Assembly: GCA_026552855.1 (NCBI GenBank)
Contig: JAPMTX010000158.1
Coordinates: 1-36,476 of the forward strand
Length of the DNA stretch: 36,476 bases
Source of the DNA: Candidatus Methanoperedens sp.
GTDB taxonomy: Archaea; Halobacteriota; Methanosarcinia; Methanosarcinales; Methanoperedenaceae
Direction of reading: 5' to 3'
Shown here: positions 12,149 to 33,256 of the stretch, one piece after another
How the letters are laid out: each line of letters begins with the position of its first letter
Numbering within the stretch: position 1 is the first letter of the stretch
Position numbers and translations under genes: made by a program
Notes under the pieces: generated by a model
What the model saw: the letters and a program-made list of their open reading frames with translations, nothing else
Told to the model about the DNA's origin: nothing
Databases searched by the model: none

Positions 12149-12311
12149 AGGCAATGCAAAAGTTTTTGTAAAATGAGAACAGAGAAAGATTTAAGTTAAA
12201 TGAGGTTGTGTTCAAGGGGCGCACATCTACGAGGTTTTAACAGGATTGCAATTTATTAGTGAGTATTTATCTTCAATGGTTGGCAGCACAGGATTAGATG
12301 GCAAAAGGTTT

Positions 12312-12400
12312 GGGCTCGTAGCTCAGTCAGGCAGAGCACCGGGCTTTTATTCGCAAGAGAAGAAACCCGATGGTCGAGGGTTCAAATCCCCCCGAGCCCG
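12312..12400 (+). tRNA. tRNA-Lys (anticodon TTT) with a 15-nt intron
   Basis: The acceptor stem GGGCTCG (12312-12318) pairs with CGAGCCC (12393-12399), followed by discriminator G at 12400. D arm GCTC/GAGC and the TTCAAAT loop are standard. Anticodon TTT is 12346-12348. Exon 1 is 12312-12349, the intron is 12350-12364 (15 nt, at the canonical 37/38 position) and exon 2 is 12365-12400, giving a 74-nt mature tRNA. In the precursor CTTT pairs with GAAG and a GCAA tetraloop closes a short hairpin, as required for the splicing endonuclease bulge-helix-bulge. Two A.C mismatches remain: C27-A43 in the anticodon stem and A50-C64 in the T stem. Confidence 0.88.
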
Positions 12401-12421
12401 TTTTGCCTGGGAGGTAATAGC

Positions 12422-22430: not shown

Positions 22431-23456
22431 ATGCCCAAATTTCTAACCATTTCACCAACACACATACCTGGTAAAAAACCTTATGCATGGGAGAAATTTC
22501 GCGATGGAAACTATATTGCAATCGGTTGGAGTGATCTTGGTGATTTGACTGGTCTTTCAGTTGAACAGGTTGTTTCCAAAATCAGAAAGCATCATTTTAA
22601 TAGTGAAACCAATGCTATTAGTACATTCACTAAATTTTTGGCACTCGAAATCGGAGATATAGTCGCAGTTAACAATGTTAATTTTGGTTTATTTGGTGTC
22701 GGCAAAGTTACTTCTGGATATAAATTTAAATTGGACATGCATGATACCGGTTCCGAGGATGACGACAAGGAATTTTACTCTCATTATCGTAAAGTAAAAT
22801 GGCTCGTAACTGATTACAAACGGAAAGAAGATTTATTGCGTATCGATGAAAAACTGTGGAAGCCTTATGGAACAACTGGAACATTAGAACAAGATGTCCC
22901 AGATTTCATAAAGCGTTTGCTAAACATGCCGGTTTCAGATAAACCGAAACCAGATGAGTTAATCCAACCAGATTTCTTAAAAACCGTCATCGACTATATC
23001 GCAATTTTAAAGAAAGATGCAGCACACAAAGAAAGAGCTCATGAGTCCATCGTAGAAGATTTCTTATGTTCCCTGGGTTATGAAAAACACAAGCACATTA
23101 AATATCGACAAGGCCGTTTAGATGTTTCAATCTATAATGATGATCGGGTGGTGTTACTTTTGGAAGTAAAAAGGGATTGGCAATTAGATTTTGAAACTCA
23201 TATGAATGATGTTAAACAGGCTTATTCTTATTCTCTTGAAAAAGGAATTCGTTTTGTTATTTTAACGAATGGTGATTATTACGCATTATTTGATCGGCTT
23301 AAAGGGCTATCTATAGACTCTAATCTTGTCGGTTATTTTCAATTGTCCCAACTTAAACGTGAAGATTTAAAAATTATTGATCGACTTAAAAAAGACAATC
23401 TGTTTAAAACAGATATAAAAGAGCTATTCGTAAATTTATCAGAATCGTTTCAATAA
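22431..23456 (+). CDS. Restriction-type nuclease: PUA/EVE-like reader plus HsdR_N-like PD-(D/E)xK domain
   Basis: A 341-residue protein. The N-terminal 130 residues (YIAIGWSDLGDL at 28-39, then LEIGDIVAVNN and LFGVGKVTSGYKF at 72-99) resemble PUA/EVE-like domains that read modified bases in Mrr/McrB-type enzymes. Residues 200-341 form a nuclease domain like the N-terminus of type I HsdR: Glu205 (HESIVEDFLCSLGY), Asp231 (GRLDVSIY), Glu245 and Lys247 (LLLEVKRDW), then KQAYSYS with Gln263. There is no ATPase and no methylase nearby, so a type IV-like, modification-dependent restriction role is the best guess. AAGGA lies 9 bases before ATG 22431. The gene is more A/T-rich than its neighbours and uses CGN arginine codons (mainly CGT) where the host prefers AGG/AGA, so recent transfer is likely. 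Confidence 0.75.
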   Translation: MPKFLTISPTHIPGKKPYAWEKFRDGNYIAIGWSDLGDLTGLSVEQVVSKIRKHHFNSETNAISTFTKFLALEIGDIVAVNNVNFGLFGVGKVTSGYKFKLDMHDTGSEDDDKEFYSHYRKVKWLVTDYKRKEDLLRIDEKLWKPYGTTGTLEQDVPDFIKRLLNMPVSDKPKPDELIQPDFLKTVIDYIAILKKDAAHKERAHESIVEDFLCSLGYEKHKHIKYRQGRLDVSIYNDDRVVLLLEVKRDWQLDFETHMNDVKQAYSYSLEKGIRFVILTNGDYYALFDRLKGLSIDSNLVGYFQLSQLKREDLKIIDRLKKDNLFKTDIKELFVNLSESFQ

Positions 23457-23903: not shown

Positions 23904-24143
23904 TCATTCCATCAATTTAATAAACTCTTCTCTTGTCAATCCTGATTGCTTGATAATCGATATCAGAGTCCCCTTTGGGACCGGGTCTCTTTTTGGGATA
24001 ATGACGAGATACTTTTCTCCGTTATTCCCTACTCTGACCAAAGCAATATGACTGCCTTTACCCTTAATGGGCGCGTAATCAAACCCGGCTTTAAGGAGGC
24101 GTTTTATAATCTTATTTGATGGAACAGAAGGAAGTTTGCTCAC
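23904..24143 (-). CDS. hicA: HicA-type mRNA interferase toxin
   Basis: A 79-residue dsRBD-like toxin of the HicA/YcfA family. LPSVPSNKIIKRLLKAGF matches the N-terminal helix, GKGSHIAL carries the catalytic histidine (His32), and KGTLISIIKQSGLTREEF is the family's C-terminal helix. HicA cleaves mRNA when not held by HicB. Its ATG overlaps the stop of hicB (24140-24143), so translation is coupled and antitoxin is made first. All key residues are intact, in contrast to the decayed DUF104/PIN pair at 856-1147. Confidence 0.88.
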   Translation of the reverse strand: MSKLPSVPSNKIIKRLLKAGFDYAPIKGKGSHIALVRVGNNGEKYLVIIPKRDPVPKGTLISIIKQSGLTREEFIKLME

Positions 24144-24385
24144 ACTGCCACACCAATGGTAGAAGTGAATTTATTTGGCGAATGTAAGGATGCAGCAAAA
24201 TCATTTAAAATTCCCAGAGCTTTGGCATTCTCAAGATATAATTCAACAGCTTCTTTCAGGTTAAGAAGAGCTTCTTCTGGTGTGTCACCCGCACTGGCAA
24301 CTTCAAGTTCAGGGCATTTTGAAACATAAACATCATCTTCCTGCCAGATTATAGCTGTGACATTTAATTTTTCCATACTTTTCAT
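24140..24385 (-). CDS. hicB: HicB-type antitoxin
   Basis: An 81-residue protein with the partial RNase H fold of HicB: LNVTAIIWQEDDVYVSKCPE, VASAGDTPEEALLNLKEAVE and LYLENA. The C-terminus lacks the ribbon-helix-helix or HTH domain found in many HicB proteins, so self-repression by this protein alone is doubtful. Start is ATG 24385 or, as in many homologues, ATG 24376 (MEKLNV); neither has a good ribosome binding site. It precedes hicA with a 4-base overlap. Confidence 0.85.
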   Translation of the reverse strand: MKSMEKLNVTAIIWQEDDVYVSKCPELEVASAGDTPEEALLNLKEAVELYLENAKALGILNDFAASLHSPNKFTSTIGVAV

Positions 24386-25006: not shown

Positions 25007-25235
25007 TTTACCTAAAAAAGTAAAACAGACGGGAAAACCCCTGAATCTATAACTTACCCAATAGCTAACTGATATACACTAATTTAACCCACTTATATAT
25101 ATACTCTTTGTAGTACCAGTGTCTTCCAACGATACATTGGCGACGAAGCTGGCACTAGTATCCTTGTTCAAATCTATTCTCCTGTGCCGCATTAAAAGCA
25201 AGTAAACCCACCTCCATAACCACAACACTTATATT
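25007..25235. other. Divergent promoter region between TRAM and cytochrome c maturation genes
   Basis: About 230 bases, A/T-rich with several TATA-like stretches (TTATATATATAC at about 25094-25105). No gene is seen. It separates the TRAM operon (minus) from the cytochrome c maturation operon (plus). Confidence 0.5.
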
Positions 25236-25256
25236 ACTTTACATCTATTGTAAAGT
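25236..25256. promoter_or_regulatory. 21-bp operator, site A (first thioredoxin gene)
   Basis: ACTTTACA (25236-25243), spacer TCTAT, TGTAAAGT (25249-25256): a perfect 8-bp inverted repeat. It lies between a TATA-like TTATAT (25229-25234) and the TTG start at 25266, where binding would block the start of a leaderless or near-leaderless transcript. Related sites are at 29128-29148 and 32799-32819. Confidence 0.7.
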
Positions 25257-25265
25257 CAGATAAAC

Positions 25266-25715
25266 TTGAAGAAATGGATATTCGTATCACTCGCCCTGAT
25301 AGTTCTCTTCTCAGGCTGTTTGAGCACACAATCGGTAGAATCAGATGCAGGCAAATTGGTATTAAAAGGAGTGACATTCAGTACCGACCTTCAGCCGGCT
25401 CTGGAGACGGCAAAAACGCAGGGCAAGCCGCTGTTCGTATATGTACGCTCTGAATACTGCGGCTGGTGCAAGAAATTTGAAGAAGAGACGTTCACTAATC
25501 AGAGTGCCATCAAGACATTAAACGAAAACTTCATATTGGTCTCAATAGATGTGAACAAGCAAAAGAACGAGACCAGGAACTTCAGGGTACATGGCACGCC
25601 CGCGGAGATATTTCTTGACTCAAACGGCATTGAGATAAAAAGAATACCAGGTTATACGGATACCCAGACATTTCTTAATGTAATAAACCAGATCGCAAAA
25701 CAAAAAGAGGCATGA
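25266..25715 (+). CDS. Thioredoxin-fold lipoprotein, extracytoplasmic
   Basis: A 149-residue protein starting at TTG 25266. Residues 1-18 (MKKWIFVSLALIVLFSGC) are a lipoprotein signal with lipobox FSGC, so the protein is anchored outside the membrane at Cys18. The domain has active site EYCGWCKK (Cys65, Cys68) and cis-proline loop HGTPAEIFL. Such thioredoxins resemble the DsbD C-terminal domain and accept electrons from CcdA to keep haem-binding cysteines of apocytochromes c reduced. It is the first gene of the plus-strand cluster and overlaps the PCYCGC gene by ATGA. The operator at 25236-25256 lies immediately upstream. Confidence 0.88.
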   Translation: MKKWIFVSLALIVLFSGCLSTQSVESDAGKLVLKGVTFSTDLQPALETAKTQGKPLFVYVRSEYCGWCKKFEEETFTNQSAIKTLNENFILVSIDVNKQKNETRNFRVHGTPAEIFLDSNGIEIKRIPGYTDTQTFLNVINQIAKQKEA

Positions 25716-26971
25716 AAATGAAGCCTGAAAAGAAAGCAAAGAACATAAAAGTAAAGAACGAAAAAATCCCTACGAAGAAGGGGAACAGTATGTTGATCAT
25801 TGGAGTGGCAGGTGTAGTATTGCTTGCCGTTATAGGATATTTCATCCTCTCAGGCGGTTCGACCGACAACTCCTCGCCAAATGGCACGAGCGAAGTAAAA
25901 CTCCCGAGTTACGCTTATACGAACCCGATGACGTTGAAGGGATATAAATACGCAACCGAACATCCCGATGTTCTTGAGCAGATACCCTGCTACTGCGGAT
26001 GCGGCGGGCACTCAGGTCACAGGTTCCTGCGCGACTGCTTTATCAATGACGACTGGACGTACGATGACCATGCCTCATTCTGCGATGTATGCATAGGAGA
26101 AGCAGTTAAAGTACAGGATTATCTTGCATCAGGCAAGACGCTCAAGGATGCCAGGGCGCTGATAGACCAGGAGTACGGCGCCAAATATTCTGACGGCAAG
26201 ACGAATACGCCGGCGGTGAGCGACTCTTATATACCAATCCTTTCACCGAAACTTTCAGGCTTACCTGCTCCGGCGCCAGCGGATACCTCAAAATTAACAC
26301 TGGCTGATAATTTCAAAAACCTTGCAGATGGACTGAAACTTACGCCTGTCGGGGTATATACCGCGTATTTTACCAACATCAAACTGCTTATCGGGACGAA
26401 CATGGAAGAACAGTATGTAACCACAATGTCTGAACCGGATGCTTTCTATGGTAAAAAATTAATTGGCATGTATAGCGCGGATTATAGTCCCAACCCGGCT
26501 TCATGGATCGAACTGCATGACCTGGGTTATGATAATACAAAGGATGCAGCTATAAGAGCACATGCTGAGCCGGGAATGAAGAACATTGTATATACAAGAC
26601 CGCTCATTTACGGGCACAGCCAGAATGTGGATAATGTTCTAAAATTGATGACCGACCCGAAAAGTTTGGAGACATCATATCAAACATATAAACCTCTGCT
26701 TGATTCTGTTGATAATCAAAATGCCGGGTATGCAGAAGTGAAAAAGATACCTAATAAGTTCTCCGACATGAATTACATGAGCCTGACCCCTGTTAACGGT
26801 AAAATTGAGCTCATCAAAGCGTATAACATAACGGATAATAAATCCATACCTTCTGCCCTGGACAAATATACCCCGCAGATCAAAGATAAGGTATTGATAA
26901 TAAAAGTAACAGGCGATCTGGCTACAGTTCAGGCTGAAGCTGATAATATAGACACAGCAGCCAGAACATAA
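25712..26971 (+). CDS. Membrane-anchored PCYCGC-motif protein
   Basis: A 419-residue protein. After a Lys-rich start, residues 27-47 form one membrane helix; the rest is probably outside. Residues 92-97 are PCYCGC followed by GGHSGH, Cys109, and FCDVC (Cys124, Cys127), the pattern of the PCYCGC family (PF13798) whose function is undefined. The Cys-rich domain ends at about residue 155. Residues 175-419 form a larger domain that I do not recognise. It lies between a thioredoxin and CcdA, so the cysteines are probably redox active and may handle apocytochrome thiols or haem, the job of CcmH in bacteria, but this is inference. ATG 25718 is an alternative start. Confidence 0.75.
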   Translation: MKMKPEKKAKNIKVKNEKIPTKKGNSMLIIGVAGVVLLAVIGYFILSGGSTDNSSPNGTSEVKLPSYAYTNPMTLKGYKYATEHPDVLEQIPCYCGCGGHSGHRFLRDCFINDDWTYDDHASFCDVCIGEAVKVQDYLASGKTLKDARALIDQEYGAKYSDGKTNTPAVSDSYIPILSPKLSGLPAPAPADTSKLTLADNFKNLADGLKLTPVGVYTAYFTNIKLLIGTNMEEQYVTTMSEPDAFYGKKLIGMYSADYSPNPASWIELHDLGYDNTKDAAIRAHAEPGMKNIVYTRPLIYGHSQNVDNVLKLMTDPKSLETSYQTYKPLLDSVDNQNAGYAEVKKIPNKFSDMNYMSLTPVNGKIELIKAYNITDNKSIPSALDKYTPQIKDKVLIIKVTGDLATVQAEADNIDTAART

Positions 26972-26982
26972 ATAGAATATAA

Positions 26983-27711
26983 ATGCCGACAGCACCATCA
27001 GTATTCTGGGTTTTCGTAGCAGGAATGGCGACACTGATAACGCCGTGCGTTCTTCCAATACTGCCTGCGGTGCTGTCAGGCTCGGTCGGGAGCAGGCTGC
27101 GTCCAGTGGCTATAGTCACGGGCATGTCCATAACCTTCACGCTGATGGGCATACTTATTTCCGCTGTTGCATCTTTTACATTTTTTGCTGATTACCTGCG
27201 CTGGTTCTCGATAATTTTTATTATCCTCATGGGTGCAGTGCTTTTCGATGAAGATATAAACCAGACATACGTAAGGCTTACAAGCTCTATCGTGAACTTC
27301 GGCAGGGAACGCGCCTCGTTTTTTGGGAACTTCAACTCAAAAATATCCAGAGAGGGGCTCCTTGGCGGTCTGTTCCTTGGTATGTCTTTAGGCATACTCT
27401 GGATCCCATGCGTTGGTCCTATACTGGGCTCGGTTTTCGCATACGTGGCAGAGAGTTCGGCGAGTACGGGCGATCTTCTGCATGGTGCAGTTCTTCTCCT
27501 GGTATACTCTCTTGGAGTCAGCATCCCGATGCTCATCATAGCATATTCGGGCAAGGGCATATCCGGACACATAAGCTGGTTCGTGAAGCGCGGTCAATTC
27601 TTGAAGAAGCTCTCAGGTCTGGTATTAATACTCGTAGGGCTGATGATGCTCTTTGGAATAGATAAATATATCAAGGCAGTACTGCTGCCTTATTTCCCAG
27701 TCTATATTTGA
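26983..27711 (+). CDS. ccdA: Cytochrome c biogenesis protein CcdA (first copy)
   Basis: A 242-residue protein with six membrane helices of the CcdA/DsbD-beta family. The redox cysteines are Cys22 (ITPCVLP) and Cys143 (WIPCVGP), each in the first turn of a helix and mirrored in the two halves. It carries electrons from cytoplasmic thioredoxin across the membrane to an extracytoplasmic acceptor, here most likely the CGWC lipoprotein encoded two genes upstream or the PCYCGC protein. Its start is 11 bases behind the stop of the PCYCGC gene, so it is in the same operon. Confidence 0.92.
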   Translation: MPTAPSVFWVFVAGMATLITPCVLPILPAVLSGSVGSRLRPVAIVTGMSITFTLMGILISAVASFTFFADYLRWFSIIFIILMGAVLFDEDINQTYVRLTSSIVNFGRERASFFGNFNSKISREGLLGGLFLGMSLGILWIPCVGPILGSVFAYVAESSASTGDLLHGAVLLLVYSLGVSIPMLIIAYSGKGISGHISWFVKRGQFLKKLSGLVLILVGLMMLFGIDKYIKAVLLPYFPVYI

Positions 27712-27717
27712 GGTCGC

Positions 27718-29124
27718 ATGAATCAGAATAAAAACGATACGGAAAACAACGGAAATAACGAAAAATCTGACCTCCTTGATGTATACTTCTTCAGGAATCT
27801 TGTCAAAAACAGGTTCTTTAAGCCAGCCGTAAACTTAATCTTCTTCATTGTCCTGCTGATTATACTCTATTTCGGTCTGTCAAGCGAGCCTGACCTCCGT
27901 TTCCACGGAGGGATACCGTTCGCTACCACGATGATATGGGATATCTGGCATCCTCTCCTTGCCTTCACCCTCATTCTCCTCGGCAGGTTGTGGTGCTTTG
28001 CATGCCCCATCGGCGCTGTCGGGGACTGGACCCAGTCTGTGTTCAGCCTTAAGAAAAAGTACCCTGAGAAGTACAGGAACCTCTGGATCGCTGTAATACT
28101 TTTCCTGTTCATTTTCGCGGCTGAGCGCCACCTCTTCATGTTCACACGCAATCCTCCGAACACTGCACTCCTGCTCCTGTTCTTTACAGGACTGGCTGTG
28201 GTGATGGGCGCGGTTTACGAGAAGCGAAGCTTCTGCAGGTATATCTGTCCCATCGGGCTTGTGCTCGGGGTCTTCTCCATGCTCTCTGCCATTGAGCTTC
28301 GCTGCAAGTCGAAGAAAACCTGCCAGGAGCACAATATAAAAGAATGCGTCATCGGGAGCGAGGCTGGAAAAGCCTGTCCTGTCGGCGAGTTCCCGCAGAC
28401 GATGGAGAGGAACAACTACTGCATCATGTGTATGGAATGCGTGAAGTCCTGCTCAAAGAACAACATACGCCTATCCCCGCGCCTCCCCGGAGCCGATCTT
28501 GTAAACTCCAGAAAGGCGCATCTTGATGAAGCGTACCTTGTCCACGGCATTATCGTAATATTTCTCTTCGTCATGGGCATGGAGCGATTGCAGTTCAGGA
28601 ACGTGGTGATCAACTTTGTTAAGTCAATAGCACCGTTCGATACGGTAGTTTTCCGCGACTTTTTCGTGAATTACTGGAGGAACATGTGGGCTATCCTCAT
28701 CTTCGCCGCATTAACACTGGGCGCAGCAGGGTTGATGTACCTCTCTGCCAGAGCCTCTATCCCTGGGAAGAGTACCAGACAGAAGTTCATAGAACTCTCC
28801 TATGCCTTCATCCCGTTGAGCCTGTCAGTCTATTTAGCCGAGAATACGTTCAGGCTGCTGAAAGGATTGTTCTTTATCACGGAAACAATTGGGAAATTCT
28901 TCGGGAGAGTCTGGGAATTCGCAATAAATTTCGATACTATAAACCATTTGCAGCTTATCTTGCTGTTTGCGGGTTTTCTTTTTACATTATGGGCTGGATA
29001 CCTTATAAGCAAAAAGCTCCCGGACAGCAAAAATGAAATACAGCATAGCATGATAGCAGTGGGTATTACTGCTGTTGTTTACCTTTTCATAGGAGTGAAA
29101 ATCCTGACACTTCCGATAATATGA
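27718..29124 (+). CDS. Membrane polyferredoxin (NapH/CcoG-like 4Fe-4S protein)
   Basis: A 468-residue protein with about eight membrane helices and Cys clusters typical of NapH/NosR/MauN-type proteins: LWCFACPIGAVGDW (about 93-106), SFCRYICPIGLVLG (about 171-184), CKSKKTC (near 202), and CIMCMECVKSC (about 236-246), enough for at least two 4Fe-4S clusters. Such proteins pass electrons from the quinone pool or cytoplasm to extracytoplasmic acceptors, or help metal reduction. TGAGGT lies upstream of ATG 27718. Lying between ccdA and a thioredoxin gene, it may feed reductant to the maturation system; which partner it uses is not known. Confidence 0.82.
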   Translation: MNQNKNDTENNGNNEKSDLLDVYFFRNLVKNRFFKPAVNLIFFIVLLIILYFGLSSEPDLRFHGGIPFATTMIWDIWHPLLAFTLILLGRLWCFACPIGAVGDWTQSVFSLKKKYPEKYRNLWIAVILFLFIFAAERHLFMFTRNPPNTALLLLFFTGLAVVMGAVYEKRSFCRYICPIGLVLGVFSMLSAIELRCKSKKTCQEHNIKECVIGSEAGKACPVGEFPQTMERNNYCIMCMECVKSCSKNNIRLSPRLPGADLVNSRKAHLDEAYLVHGIIVIFLFVMGMERLQFRNVVINFVKSIAPFDTVVFRDFFVNYWRNMWAILIFAALTLGAAGLMYLSARASIPGKSTRQKFIELSYAFIPLSLSVYLAENTFRLLKGLFFITETIGKFFGRVWEFAINFDTINHLQLILLFAGFLFTLWAGYLISKKLPDSKNEIQHSMIAVGITAVVYLFIGVKILTLPII

Positions 29125-29127
29125 ATC

Positions 29128-29148
29128 ACTTTACATGTTTCGTAAAAT
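29128..29148. promoter_or_regulatory. 21-bp operator, site C (second thioredoxin gene)
   Basis: ACTTTACA (29128-29135), spacer TGTTT, CGTAAAAT (29141-29148): same length and layout as the site at 25236, with two mismatches in the right half. It stands just upstream of a TATA-like AAAATATATACG (29144-29153), 44 bases before the start of the thioredoxin gene. Confidence 0.5.
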
Positions 29149-29191
29149 ATATACGTATAGAATCAATTAAAAATCAAACAGGAACTAACTT

Positions 29192-29665
29192 ATGAGAACT
29201 AAGAAATTGCTGACAATATTTGTGTTGATAATGATGATATCCTTCGCATACGGCACTTTTAACCTTTCTATCAGGGATTTCACGCTGAGCAACCAGACCA
29301 CCAGTTACCTAGGCGGTCTCACATGGTCACGGAACCTGACTACATCTCTTGATGTTGCCAATCAGGAGAACAAGCCTGTCGCAATTTATTTCTGGGCAAT
29401 ATGGTGCCAGTACTGCGCAAAATTCCAGTCCGATACCCTTGGGAACCCGCAGGTAAAAAAGGTACTTGAAAATGATTATGTTCTTGTGGCAATGGACCTC
29501 GATATTGACAGGGATGTAGCGAATAACTATCGCGTGAGCGCACCACCGGCTGTAGTTTTCCTTGACGATAAGGGGACTGAGGTTGACAGGATATCAGGTG
29601 CTGTTGGTGCAGATTATTTTCTGCCAATAGCAACCCAGGTACGGGACAAGGTGAGGAGAAAATAA
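29192..29665 (+). CDS. Secreted/anchored thioredoxin-like protein
   Basis: A 157-residue protein. Residues 1-21 are a signal peptide or anchor (LLTIFVLIMMISFAYG). The thioredoxin domain carries AIWCQYCAKF (Cys72, Cys75) and the VSAPPAVVFL cis-proline loop; Tyr-Cys instead of Gly-Trp-Cys distinguishes it from the first copy. It is probably a second acceptor of electrons from CcdA, or the thiol partner of CcmF. It has its own promoter region with an operator-like site, so it starts a second transcript that continues into ccmF, whose ATG lies 1 base behind its stop. Confidence 0.87.
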   Translation: MRTKKLLTIFVLIMMISFAYGTFNLSIRDFTLSNQTTSYLGGLTWSRNLTTSLDVANQENKPVAIYFWAIWCQYCAKFQSDTLGNPQVKKVLENDYVLVAMDLDIDRDVANNYRVSAPPAVVFLDDKGTEVDRISGAVGADYFLPIATQVRDKVRRK

Positions 29666-29666
29666 T

Positions 29667-31955
29667 ATGGTAACCTTCGGAAACGAAATACTCTATGCCA
29701 GCATAGCCGTGAGTGTAATCGCGCTTGCCGGGCTGTTATTGAAAGAACTGAAAAACGACAATATTCTAACAAAATTAGCCTCACCCCTGATAATGGCTGC
29801 GGCGGGACTTCTAGGCTTCGCATACCTTCTCCTTGTTTACTATTTTGTTGCGGGCGATTATACCTACGAGTATGTATGGCAGTACTCAAGCCGCGATTTA
29901 CCATTGATATATAAGATAGCAGGTTCATGGGCAGGGCAGCCGGGAACGTACCTTCTTTGGGTACTGGTAATATTCATCTCGGCAGCATGGCTTGCGAAAA
30001 CCTCAAAACATGCAACACCCCTGGCGAGAAGGACGCAGATAATAACCGTAATCATAGGAATTTACTTTATAATACTCACACTGATCCAAACCCCGTTCAA
30101 AACAATCTATGAAGGGAGTCCCGAACTCCCACTTAGCTATATTCCGTCTGACGGGAGCGGTCTGAACACGCTTCTGGTTAACTTCTGGATGACAGTCCAT
30201 CCTCCCCTGATGTTCATCGGCTATGCAGCCATGACAATACCATTCGCAGCAGCCATCGTTTACCTCGTAACAAAAGAGGACGGGTGGGAGGAGCTGGGCA
30301 GGCAGTGGGCAAGGTTCACGTGGCTCTTCCTCGGCATGGGCATCGCTGTCGGGGGCGTATGGGCGTACCTGGTACTGGGCTGGGGCGGGTTCTGGGCATG
30401 GGACCCGGTAGAGACCGCATCGTTCATCCCCTGGCTTACGCTCACAGGCTTTCTTCACGCATCAGCACTTCACAGGAAGAACAAAAAGACCTTTTCGATA
30501 GCTGCACCCATTCTTGCAGCGGTCTCCTTCATTCTGGTCATATACGCAGCCATAGTTGTCAGGAGCGGTCTCTTCAACTCGGTCCACGCTTTCGGGGAAG
30601 CTTCCACAGGCACGCTGCTCATTGCATCGGTCCTGGTTACAACACTTGTTTCGGGTGCTCTGGGAATGCGGCGGTACTTTGAGGAGACCGATACAACAGA
30701 AGAAGACCCAGGCTTGTGGAGCAAGGTCAATATCTTCTACGTTACCCTGCTTTTATTTGTAGTACTGGCTTTCATATCCTTCTGGGGCATCAGCTACCCC
30801 GTGTTCATCCAGCTGACCCAGGGACTGAAGGTGAACGTGGCTTCGGATACCAAGAACTTCTTCAATGTATGGAGTTACCCCTTCACAATAATACTGCTCC
30901 TTGCGCTCGGATTCTGTTTGAATTACAAAGAGTCTGATAAAGAGAAACAGAAACAAACGCTGTTCATTGTAGCAGCCCTCACTGTGATATTCATGCTGCC
31001 AAGGACGGCGAACTTCTATGTGCTTGACCACAACAGCCCTTTCTGGGTAAGGGAGCCGGCGATCTACAAACTGATAGGCAGCATCTCTGCACTTTCAATT
31101 TTCCCGCCGTTGATATATGCTGCATATGCCATTATCGGGTATCTTAAAAAACACCTGAGCATCACAAGCCAGCGTGCCAGGATTAAGGGCATAGGGATCT
31201 CGATGGTGCATATTGCGGTCGTTTTGATACTTTTCGGTGCGGTCATCAGTTCCACCATGACCAGCACCATTGAAGGGATCAATATACCGCTTGCGGCAAA
31301 AGGAGAACTTGTTCCCGTGGGTAATAATTACGCTGTTAAGGTTGTGGATTTTTCAACCAGAAGCCTGACAGATACAAGCTATCCCGGAACCCCGATATCA
31401 GATGTGCTTGCCAACCCTTCAAAGTATGAGAAAGAGACAGTAAAAATAAACGGAAAGGTCACCAGTTCGAAATCCCTTGAAGGGCACGGCACTCTTGTGG
31501 AACTGACCGATGCTTCGGACAGTATTTGGGTCGTATTCCCGGGAAATATCTCAGAATCCGTCTTACCCAAAGATACATGGCTGACCGTTACAGGCAATAC
31601 ATTATCTGGTTTTGAACAGCCTCTTCTCAGTGTCACCGGGGCGGACCAGCTTGATATATCGGGTAAATACAAAGTCCAGAGAGTAAATCTTGAAATTTAT
31701 CAGGGCAACAAAAAAATCGGAAGCGGGACTGCTGAATACCTTGAAGGAAAAGGCGGAAGCGGGACGTTCCCTATGGTGGACAGCAGCATCACAGGGACGG
31801 ATCTGTATGTCATTTTCCAAGGTGTTGGAGGCGGTGTTGTACCGTTAACTCTGAAAATAATCCCTGCGGTCAATTTTGCCTGGGTCGGTATAGTGCTCTT
31901 CGCTATAGGGGCAATCCTGATAATGGCTGTTAAACCGAGAGCCAAAGGCGGTTAG
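29667..31955 (+). CDS. ccmF: Cytochrome c haem lyase component CcmF with extra OB-like domain
   Basis: A 762-residue membrane protein of the CcmF/CcmC/NrfE family. The tryptophan-rich haem-handling motif is GWGGFWAWDPVETASFIPWL (about residues 237-256), and PGTYLLWVL and HPPLMFIGYA are typical neighbours. Some fourteen membrane helices can be followed. Residues about 570-660 (KINGKVTSSKS...GHGTLVELTDASDSIWVVFP) form an OB-like beta domain before the last helix; it lacks the haem-binding His/Cys motif of CcmE. CcmF joins haem to apocytochrome cysteines outside the membrane. GGAG precedes ATG 29667. No ccmA, ccmB, ccmC or ccmE is in the window. Confidence 0.93.
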   Translation: MVTFGNEILYASIAVSVIALAGLLLKELKNDNILTKLASPLIMAAAGLLGFAYLLLVYYFVAGDYTYEYVWQYSSRDLPLIYKIAGSWAGQPGTYLLWVLVIFISAAWLAKTSKHATPLARRTQIITVIIGIYFIILTLIQTPFKTIYEGSPELPLSYIPSDGSGLNTLLVNFWMTVHPPLMFIGYAAMTIPFAAAIVYLVTKEDGWEELGRQWARFTWLFLGMGIAVGGVWAYLVLGWGGFWAWDPVETASFIPWLTLTGFLHASALHRKNKKTFSIAAPILAAVSFILVIYAAIVVRSGLFNSVHAFGEASTGTLLIASVLVTTLVSGALGMRRYFEETDTTEEDPGLWSKVNIFYVTLLLFVVLAFISFWGISYPVFIQLTQGLKVNVASDTKNFFNVWSYPFTIILLLALGFCLNYKESDKEKQKQTLFIVAALTVIFMLPRTANFYVLDHNSPFWVREPAIYKLIGSISALSIFPPLIYAAYAIIGYLKKHLSITSQRARIKGIGISMVHIAVVLILFGAVISSTMTSTIEGINIPLAAKGELVPVGNNYAVKVVDFSTRSLTDTSYPGTPISDVLANPSKYEKETVKINGKVTSSKSLEGHGTLVELTDASDSIWVVFPGNISESVLPKDTWLTVTGNTLSGFEQPLLSVTGADQLDISGKYKVQRVNLEIYQGNKKIGSGTAEYLEGKGGSGTFPMVDSSITGTDLYVIFQGVGGGVVPLTLKIIPAVNFAWVGIVLFAIGAILIMAVKPRAKGG

Positions 31956-31964
31956 ATAGTGCGT

Positions 31965-31997
31965 TTGAGGAGAGGTATACAATAGACTGTTCCTCAA
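31965..31997. terminator. Possible terminator between the convergent ccmF and ccdA genes
   Basis: TTGAGGA (31965-31971) and TCCTCAA (31991-31997) are inverted repeats with a 19-base loop in the short gap between convergent genes. There is no strong T-run, so the assignment is weak. Confidence 0.35.
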
Positions 31998-32016
31998 GTC
32001 CGGCAGATGAGGCTGT

Positions 32017-32748
32017 TTATATCCCGTAGAACGTCGTCGGGAAGTACCTGGAGAACAGCCTGATCATAAGCTTATCTATCCCGAAGAGCAGCATTACCCC
32101 GACCAGTATGAGAATAAGTCCTGCGAGTTTCTTGAGCATCTCCCCGTTCCTCATGAACCATTTGTACCTGTTCGTGACCTTTTTGCCGTAATAGGCTATG
32201 GAGAGCATGGGAAGGCTCATGCCTACAGAATAAACGAACAGCATCCCTGCGCCATAGGTCACGTTGCCCACAGAGGCAACATACGCGAGCACCGCGCCGA
32301 GAATGGGACCCACGCACGGGATCCAGACTATGCCTAAAGACATGCCGAGGAAAAACGCGCTGAAGAGACCCTGCCCGGGCGCATTCGATGTTCTATTCAA
32401 AAAGCCGGCATTGTTCCTTAAACCTTGCGTTATCGAGCTTGAAATTTTTATGAACTCCGCGTTTACATCATCGTCAAAGAGCACAAAGCCCATTACCATT
32501 ATGAACAGAATAGACAGACTGCGCAGGATATCTGTAAAGCCCGCAAAAGCAGCACCGAAACCTGAAACGAGCGTGCCCATTACGGTAAAGCTGAGCGTCA
32601 TGCCCGTTACTATAGCCACGGGGCGAAGCTTTCCTCCGGCAGAACCGGACATTACAGCCGGGACAAGAGGAAGGCAGCACGGCTTGAGTATGGTGACTAA
32701 ACCTGCTATAAAGACCAGAAAGATCGAAGGTGTTGTTTCCACACTCAT
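32017..32748 (-). CDS. ccdA: Cytochrome c biogenesis protein CcdA (second copy)
   Basis: A 243-residue six-helix protein, clearly paralogous to the copy at 26983 (shared GGxLRPVAIVTGM and LGMSLGI.WIPCVGPILG.V.AYVA). The start at ATG 32748 (MSVETTPSIF) matches the N-terminus of the first copy; an upstream in-frame GTG at 32772 would add 8 residues. Redox cysteines are Cys24 and Cys145; the first motif is KPCCLPL with a second cysteine next to it. It is transcribed toward ccmF from its own promoter, a TATATAT box followed by the operator at 32799-32819. It may serve a different thioredoxin partner than the first copy. Confidence 0.9.
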   Translation of the reverse strand: MSVETTPSIFLVFIAGLVTILKPCCLPLVPAVMSGSAGGKLRPVAIVTGMTLSFTVMGTLVSGFGAAFAGFTDILRSLSILFIMVMGFVLFDDDVNAEFIKISSSITQGLRNNAGFLNRTSNAPGQGLFSAFFLGMSLGIVWIPCVGPILGAVLAYVASVGNVTYGAGMLFVYSVGMSLPMLSIAYYGKKVTNRYKWFMRNGEMLKKLAGLILILVGVMLLFGIDKLMIRLFSRYFPTTFYGI

Positions 32749-32798
32749 GTTAGCCTGCCTCTGCAGAACCACAGGGTTTTGCCGTATATAAGAGCATA

Positions 32799-32819
32799 AC
32801 TTTACGTACGATGTAAAGT
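32799..32819. promoter_or_regulatory. 21-bp operator, site B (second ccdA gene)
   Basis: ACTTTACG (32799-32806), spacer TACGA, TGTAAAGT (32812-32819) on the plus strand: inverted repeat with one mismatch, same size as sites A and C. On the minus strand it directly follows a TATA box (CTATATATC), as site A follows its own TATA box. Confidence 0.65.
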
Positions 32820-32927
32820 GATATATAGCTTAGCTTTTGTTGGTGTGTCAGTATAATATGGGGCTGGTGAGATTTGAACTCACGATCGACGGGTCTCTCC
32901 GAAAACGCCAGGTTTTTGGCTCCCAGA

Positions 32928-32947
32928 CCCCCGAATTAATTCGGGGG
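32928..32947. repeat. 20-bp perfect palindrome in the tRNA-Trp intron
   Basis: CCCCCGAATT followed directly by AATTCGGGGG. It stands between box D of the guide RNA and the 3' splice site, outside all required guide and splice elements, and may be an insertion. Confidence 0.65.
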
Positions 32948-32958
32948 AATAAGCACGT

Positions 32959-33025
32959 TCAGTGCTCCAACGGCTCCTCATCGCTTACCGCGTCCGGTTC
33001 GCTCGGTAGACCCGTTGCTCATCAT
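32959..33025 (-). ncRNA. Box C/D sRNA inside the tRNA-Trp intron
   Basis: Read on the minus strand: box C ATGATGA (33025-33019), guide GCAACGGGTCTA of 12 nt (33018-33007), box D' CCGA (33006-33003), box C' GCGATGA (32984-32978), guide ending GTTGGAGCA, box D CTGA (32962-32959). By the rule of the fifth nucleotide before D/D', the D guide selects C34 (pairing with GCTCCA) and the D' guide selects C39 (pairing with AGACCCGT) of the same tRNA. This is the arrangement known from haloarchaeal and other euryarchaeal pre-tRNA-Trp introns that guide 2'-O-methylation by fibrillarin. Confidence 0.9.
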
Positions 33026-33256
33026 TACACCTTGTTAAAGGTTTTCCGCTGGAGCCCGTCGCCATGCCGGACTAGGCCACAGCCCCGTGTTGCGGCAAAC
33101 CGTCTGTAGAGGTTCGCCAGAGGGTATCGCTATACTCGATTCGATGGCTATTAAATCTATCTAATCCTCATGTACTGATATCCATGCAGTAAAACCTGCC
33201 ACTTCTGAGAATCATTCCAGACAAATTATTTATAAATGAAAGTATAATCAGCTATT

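Follow-up and report, generated by a model that had tools for sequence, protein, structure and literature searches.

Candidatus Methanoperedens needs large c-type cytochromes to hand the electrons of methane on to nitrate or metals, which raises the question of how the genes that mature these proteins are controlled. We have approached it through a stretch of 36,476 nucleotides from a Candidatus Methanoperedens sp. genome (assembly GCA_026552855.1, contig JAPMTX010000158.1), here called the window; it is contig C127 of the genome labelled G000, which has 3.40 Mb in 211 contigs. In the window a 21-bp palindrome, the operator, stands before three groups of genes of a cytochrome c maturation cluster. 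No control of cytochrome c maturation in Ca. Methanoperedens was found described in the literature searched. We consider it likely that a winged-helix repressor of the BlaI/MecI/CopY type, encoded outside the window, reads this palindrome and represses the genes behind it, and plausible that a peptidase releases them; binding, repression, cleavage, and signal are all predicted.

The operator and the genes behind it

Allowing up to three mismatches, the pattern ACTTTACA-N5-TGTAAAGT has exactly three matches in the window, at 25236 (site A, no mismatch), 29128 (site B, two mismatches), and 32799 (site C, one mismatch), and no further copy elsewhere in it, just as an earlier note on this DNA had reported. 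Across 100 shuffled versions of the window the mean was 0.11 matches, and three were never reached. All three sites are exact to a narrower core, TTTACR-N5-YGTAAA, and when spacers of 0–12 were tried in the window the core appeared with N5 only, precisely at A, B, and C. The same spacing prevails in 49 loci centered on a BlaI-like regulator gene (630,646 bases, see below), with 85 core matches at N5, about 45 of which are the operator of that gene itself, vs 0 or 1 for each other spacing in the same range.

Site A (25236..25256, plus strand), a perfect palindrome, lies between a TATA-like box and the TTG start of trx1 (25266..25715, +), which encodes a thioredoxin-like protein (PF13899/PF13098) and is followed on the same strand by a PCYCGC-motif protein (25712..26971; PF13798, 77 bits), a first CcdA (DsbD_TM, 26983..27711; PF02683), and a NapH-like 4Fe-4S membrane protein (Fer4_5, 27718..29124; PF12801, the match to NapH being weak). 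Site B (29128..29148, +) precedes a second thioredoxin-like gene, trx2 (29192..29665, +; PF13098), and ccmF of the haem lyase family (29667..31955, +; PF01578, with TIGR00353 at 221 bits, under its cut-off), and site C (32799..32819, minus strand) precedes a second ccdA, ccdA2, with an ATG start (DsbD_TM, 32017..32748, -; PF02683). Pfam thus bears out the genes that had been assigned to each site. Just upstream of ccdA2, Rfam places an sR3 box C/D RNA (32957-33029, minus strand), which by eye sits between the flanks of an apparent intron-bearing tRNA gene on that strand (about 32860-33110), for which ARAGORN gave no report.

The promoters are arranged somewhat differently from what the earlier note had read, namely that A and B follow their TATA boxes directly and that C lies before its own. 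At site A the TTATAT box (25228..25235, +) abuts the upstream side of the operator in 28/28 loci of the alignment with relatives, always with an identical offset. At site B the TATA-like letters (29149..29154, +) come right behind the operator, with ATAT at this place in 15/15 aligned loci, and the AT-rich letters upstream are the end of the preceding gene. At site C a TATA-like box (32820..32828, on the ccdA2 strand, -) lies upstream, with a match within 14 bases in 22 of 23 aligned loci, while a 7-of-8 TATA match downstream occurs in 9 of the 23, the own genome included; a second TATA candidate for ccdA2 falls at about 32785-32792. The alignment of relatives' promoters indicates, therefore, that the operator comes after the TATA box at A and probably also at C, but not at B; the earlier reading holds for A, fails for B, and probably fails for C. 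The BlaI-like gene has a comparable layout, a TTTAATA-like box and then the operator, ending some 2 bases before the start. The natural reading of such a position is that a protein bound there would block TBP/TFB or the polymerase, i.e., repression.

An 8-base inverted repeat around a 5-base loop in AT-rich DNA could also be an RNA hairpin or terminator, or a chance palindrome, but the operator abuts TATA boxes and not gene ends, its letters and spacing are conserved while the flanks are not, and the reversed-pattern controls in the own genome are near zero, all of which makes this explanation very improbable. The hairpin or terminator version was dropped on the position of the sites. An Rfam scan gave no match at them.

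These controls come from counts over the whole own genome, with the reversed pattern for comparison. Up to two mismatches there are 11 sites vs 0, and for the core 14 vs 1, so that the motif is not scattered at random, the point on which the earlier note had suggested a genome scan; at three mismatches the figures are 30 vs 15, and single sites of that kind mean little. Eleven of the 14 core sites lie in clusters for cytochrome c maturation, thiol redox, ABC transporters, or regulators, nine of them no more than 75 bases away from where a gene on these themes starts: A, B, and C, and those at CcmE, CcmH, an ABC ATPase, the BlaI-like gene, and two AsnC-TRASH genes. For the other two, C144:12249 and C155:30007, the next called gene begins 287 and 305 bases further on. 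The remaining core sites are off theme, two having no theme gene start near (G000:C31:13988 and C126:32661) and one being inside a reading frame (C135:7672). Among the mismatched sites, one with a single mismatch (C56:1066) has neither a sensible promoter nor a theme gene near, and one with two mismatches is found at CcmC (C117).

To avoid the bias of genomes picked for their sites, conservation was measured by searching the proteins first and inspecting the upstream DNA afterwards. Within Ca. Methanoperedens, site A is kept before its operon in 29 of 30 genomes (30 loci; 28 with the core and one with one mismatch), and at the 30th locus just 356 bases precede the gene on its contig; at two of the 29 loci the operator stands 60–83 bases before the PCYCGC gene itself. 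A core match within 215 bases was found at 23 of 25 ccdA2 orthologues (site C) and at 0/5 paralogue hits of the ccdA1 type. Site B is the weakest of the three, with 15 core matches and two one-mismatch sites among 30 loci from 26 genomes, the other 13 having none. The expected conservation in close relatives is in this way confirmed, unevenly between the sites.

A survey of the genes next to 135 sites, in 15 genomes picked for bearing sites and so lacking denominators (G003 represented by one contig only; G004, G009, G011, and G012 left out; names from Pfam), gave as recurring neighbors thioredoxins (13 genomes), CcdA (11), CcmE (8), a loosely clustered group of ABC ATPases with one UvrA among them (7), AsnC-TRASH and BlaI-like proteins (6 each), YHS proteins, a Met-rich Fer4_5 protein, and a small lipoprotein (5 each), CcmH (3), and CopA/CopZ and ResB (2 each). 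The label of a cytochrome c maturation regulon, given in the earlier note, is right as to the maturation genes and too narrow for the whole, which extends to CopA, a CopZ-like protein, YHS proteins, a MacB-type ABC transporter, and two regulators. The maturation proteins themselves (CcmE, CcmF, and CcdA) belong to the same pathway as the Ccm machinery of Methanosarcina acetivorans; the part of the genetic study available to us (PMC9084895) mentions no regulator, transcription factor, or operator. Judged from the DNA, the operator and its regulon are almost certainly real.

A BlaI-like candidate repressor and its neighboring peptidase

Outside the window the operator is also found at the starts of two regulator genes, one BlaI-like and the other AsnC-TRASH, and the first appears as the likely reader of the palindrome, its binding being predicted. 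In the own genome it encodes 119 amino acids (G000:C203:2885-3241) and scores best with the BlaI/MecI/CopY family (Penicillinase_R, PF03965, 35.6 bits with a cut-off of 22.6), a profile that matches 32/32 of the BlaI-like members. Of 49 loci, 45 have the operator immediately ahead of the start, and the other four have it there with one mismatch. These loci come from Ca. Methanoperedens (L205 being Ca. M. nitroreducens ANME-2d), Methanosarcina, Methanolobus, and relatives; L248 is a broken gene, and a 50th, L249, was left out as a fragment. All 22 Ca. Methanoperedens copies compared have the operator at the start.

The presence of the gene and the number of motif copies go together. We counted core sites in 199 genomes of the class, again with the reversed pattern as control. 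All 24 Methanoperedenaceae genomes have the BlaI-like gene, with a mean of 13.3 core sites vs 2.2 in the control; 23 other genomes of the order that have it average 3.9 vs 1.5, and the 100 genomes of the order that do not have it show on average no excess (1.15 vs 1.65). Outside Methanoperedenaceae the difference between genomes with and without the gene has p = 1.4e-9, a value not corrected for kinship.

In 44 of the 45 loci (of 49) with a readable next gene, that gene encodes a predicted membrane peptidase with HExxH, of about 225–233 amino acids (one shortened to 188), which in Methanoperedens overlaps the BlaI-like gene by 4 bases. Pfam matches M48 in 32/32 and M56, the BlaR1 family, in 16/32 (best M56 E-value 4e-4), and the nearest solved sequence is HtpX (3cqb, E 5e-7). 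The residues C9, C13, M68, C70, and M73 and the HExxH motif are invariant in all 32. A low-confidence AlphaFold2 model has helices at 20-39, 43-67, and 75-104; charge and hydrophobicity suggest a membrane topology in which the Cys and Met residues face outward and the HExxH domain is on the inner side. Another peptidase-like gene (319–324 amino acids, by eye similar to HtpX) comes after the repressor and peptidase pair in L205, L208, L213, L221, L224, and L227.

Such a pairing recalls the staphylococcal BlaI-BlaR1 and MecI-MecR1 systems, in which a repressor of the PF03965 type goes with a membrane zinc peptidase, the half-sites are TACA/TGTA (here TTACA/TGTAA), and the repressor is autoregulated (here a prediction from the operator at its start). 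According to the sections available, BlaR1 and MecR1 cut BlaI and MecI (PMC7593790), BlaI is released by proteases and has TACA/TGTA half-sites, and the CopR-CopY box is RNYKACANNYGTMRNY (PMC7253601). Unlike BlaR1/MecR1, the archaeal peptidase is closer to M48/HtpX and has no beta-lactam sensor domain, the Pfam scan of the 32 peptidases giving no penicillin-binding domain, and the archaeal regulon, unlike that of BlaI/MecI, consists of cytochrome c maturation, copper, and ABC transport genes. Copper repressors of the CopY/CopR type (KACANNTGTM box) share with the archaeal repressor the Pfam family, the half-site, and, in two genomes, the targets, a copper ATPase and a CopZ-like protein. The archaeal repressor, unlike CopY, has no C-terminal Cys-X-Cys motif: the own-genome copy contains neither Cys nor His, and among 32 aligned proteins two have Cys and 13 have His, none of them conserved. 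A direct metal switch like that of CopY thus seems unlikely, and the guess that the peptidase brings about release is to be preferred. Asn111-Phe112 is invariant in the BlaI-like protein, and in a weak alignment (ranges 19-114 and 9-104, E 0.18) it falls on residues 101-102 of BlaI (1sd4), which we take to be the staphylococcal cut site. As to cleavage, this pair is suggestive; proteolytic release of the predicted repressor is plausible.

Members of the BlaI/MecI/CopY family have already been annotated in archaea, one from Haloferax looking like TrmB (PMC9240420, in the part available), and the family has been counted there (PMC8253408, likewise in part), so that the protein family itself is not new in archaea. 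A search mostly of open papers found no description of the operator, the regulon, or the pairing of repressor and peptidase; the accessible text of an ANME genome comparison (PMC9012536) uses the word regulator 0 times. The earlier note's remark, that it knew of no described regulator of archaeal cytochrome c maturation with this site, still stands after this search, with a candidate now named.

Several observations weigh against this reader and this switch. MarR and TrmB profiles also match 32/32 of the BlaI-like proteins, with 33.0 and 31.1 bits for the first member next to 35.8 for Penicillinase_R, and both the best hits to solved structures and the best Foldseek hits are of the MarR type, MecI (1sd6) coming at Foldseek rank 39 with an E-value of 5e-4 and a template modeling score of 0.52 (mean predicted local distance difference test, pLDDT, of the model 82.5). 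The half-sites are always 5 bases apart, not 2 as for BlaI/MecI, and the N5 spacer likewise differs from that of CopY. In the counts, part of the Methanosarcinaceae excess is the BlaI-like gene's own operator and is thus built in, six genomes with no BlaI-like hit (G053, G133, G140, G146, G152, and G185) hold 4–7 core copies, and at two mismatches G013 has as many control matches as sites (5 and 5), even if four of those sites are grouped in a single cluster that has thioredoxin, YHS, and CcdA. The peptidase model has a mean pLDDT of 68 and no Foldseek match at E 0.001, on account of which it was not used as evidence of family. Second-type BlaI-like copies (L231, L232, and L234), which adjoin ccdA and/or AsnC-TRASH genes, have no peptidase neighbor. 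Finally, the AsnC-TRASH genes bear the operator too.

The AsnC-TRASH protein as reader or target

CopT and CopR are archaeal regulators of the Lrp/AsnC-TRASH type. The regulon includes a protein built like the HVO_1752-type regulators, and the operator stands where its gene starts: both own-genome copies exceed the cut-offs for an AsnC-type helix-turn-helix (PF13404) and for TRASH_HVO_1752_C (PF24273), and the operator core ends 3–7 bases before the start in 17 of 18 intact copies of the genus. Together with the copper genes of the regulon, these features would suit a protein that reads the operator itself, senses cytosolic copper, and controls the regulon, the BlaI-like gene being one of its targets. 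We regard this as unlikely. Three genomes with no match to it (G010, G013, and G015, respectively, 87, 97, and 96% complete) keep sites at trx, ccdA, CopA, or YHS genes, the start of a copy in another family (G018, 45% identity) lacks the operator, and the BlaI-like gene retains the operator in other families. AsnC-TRASH as sole reader was dropped on the first two of these points.

That both proteins read the same or overlapping sites, with AsnC-TRASH bringing in metal as a further input for the BlaI-like switch, is less probable again. The operator stands at the start of both regulator genes, an AsnC-TRASH gene lies directly behind the BlaI-like gene in L234, and ccdA, BlaI, and AsnC-TRASH (broken there) form one row in L231; yet one half-site and one spacing common to two unrelated DNA-binding families would be unusual, and the same data are accounted for if AsnC-TRASH is a target. 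It is more likely, on these distributions, that the AsnC-TRASH protein is a target of the operator system and not its reader.

A proposed proteolytic switch and its possible origin

The BlaI-like repressor would work as follows, building on what can be read off the DNA: a conserved operator of fixed spacing, the genes of the regulon, an operator copy at the repressor's own start, a peptidase gene next to that of the repressor, and motif counts that follow the presence of the repressor gene. Dimers would sit on TTTACR-N5-YGTAAA, between or over the TATA box and the start region, and keep down the genes for cytochrome c maturation, thiol redox, copper handling, and the MacB-type transporter, as well as the repressor's own gene. 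An outside signal would be read by the invariant outer-face Cys and Met residues of the peptidase, which would then cut the repressor, as BlaR1 cuts BlaI, and release the regulon. Copper or thiol as that signal is a guess with some support.

Outside Methanoperedenaceae another set of genes also has sites. In Methanosarcina and Methanolobus loci, the BlaI-like gene is divergent from an operon for a MacB/FtsX permease, an ATPase, and an FtrD-like lipoprotein, and one to three extra core sites lie in the interval. Eight genomes outside the family were inspected, and in the six of the Methanosarcina/Methanolobus type the BlaI/MacB region is the sole site cluster seen, other copies being at control level; in G079 two additional sites lie about 900 bases apart on C16. 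G018, G022, and G197 likewise have sites at the MacB-ATPase-FtrD-like operon, there at a distance from the repressor gene (in G197 the contig includes no more than the first gene of the operon). In G018, which is of another family, and in G197 a thioredoxin-PCYCGC operon and a second BlaI-like gene are divergent with sites between them, and in G018 ccdA continues that operon. Given the sites at the MacB operon in other families, this operon may have been the earlier target, to which cytochrome c maturation was added afterwards.

A bolder idea, which we hold to be slightly less likely than not, is an archaeal BlaI/BlaR1-like proteolytic switch with no antibiotic link, in which the outer Cys/Met cluster would bind Cu(I) or read the thiol-disulfide state and the peptidase would cut the repressor, setting the cytochrome c maturation capacity of nitrate-dependent methane oxidizers; the regulon would have grown from an older combination of the repressor-peptidase pair and the MacB-FtrD-like genes still present in Methanosarcina and Methanolobus. 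If the proposed system is right, operator and regulator would make the control of cytochrome c maturation directly testable, archaea would gain a route from membrane to gene by regulated proteolysis, and switches of the BlaI/BlaR1 type would seem to be of greater age and wider use than resistance to beta-lactams. From the motif, further genes whose function is unknown are also predicted to take part in extracytoplasmic haem, thiol, and copper handling.

Elsewhere in the window, a tRNA at 12311-12401 (+) is reported by both ARAGORN (with an unresolved two-letter anticodon) and Rfam. A short fragment from the C-terminal end of a phage-type integrase (PF00589, 22085-22303, +) adjoins a protein with an HSDR_N-like domain (22431-23456), and a HicA toxin gene (PF07927) lies behind a weak HicB-like gene at 23904-24385 on the minus strand.

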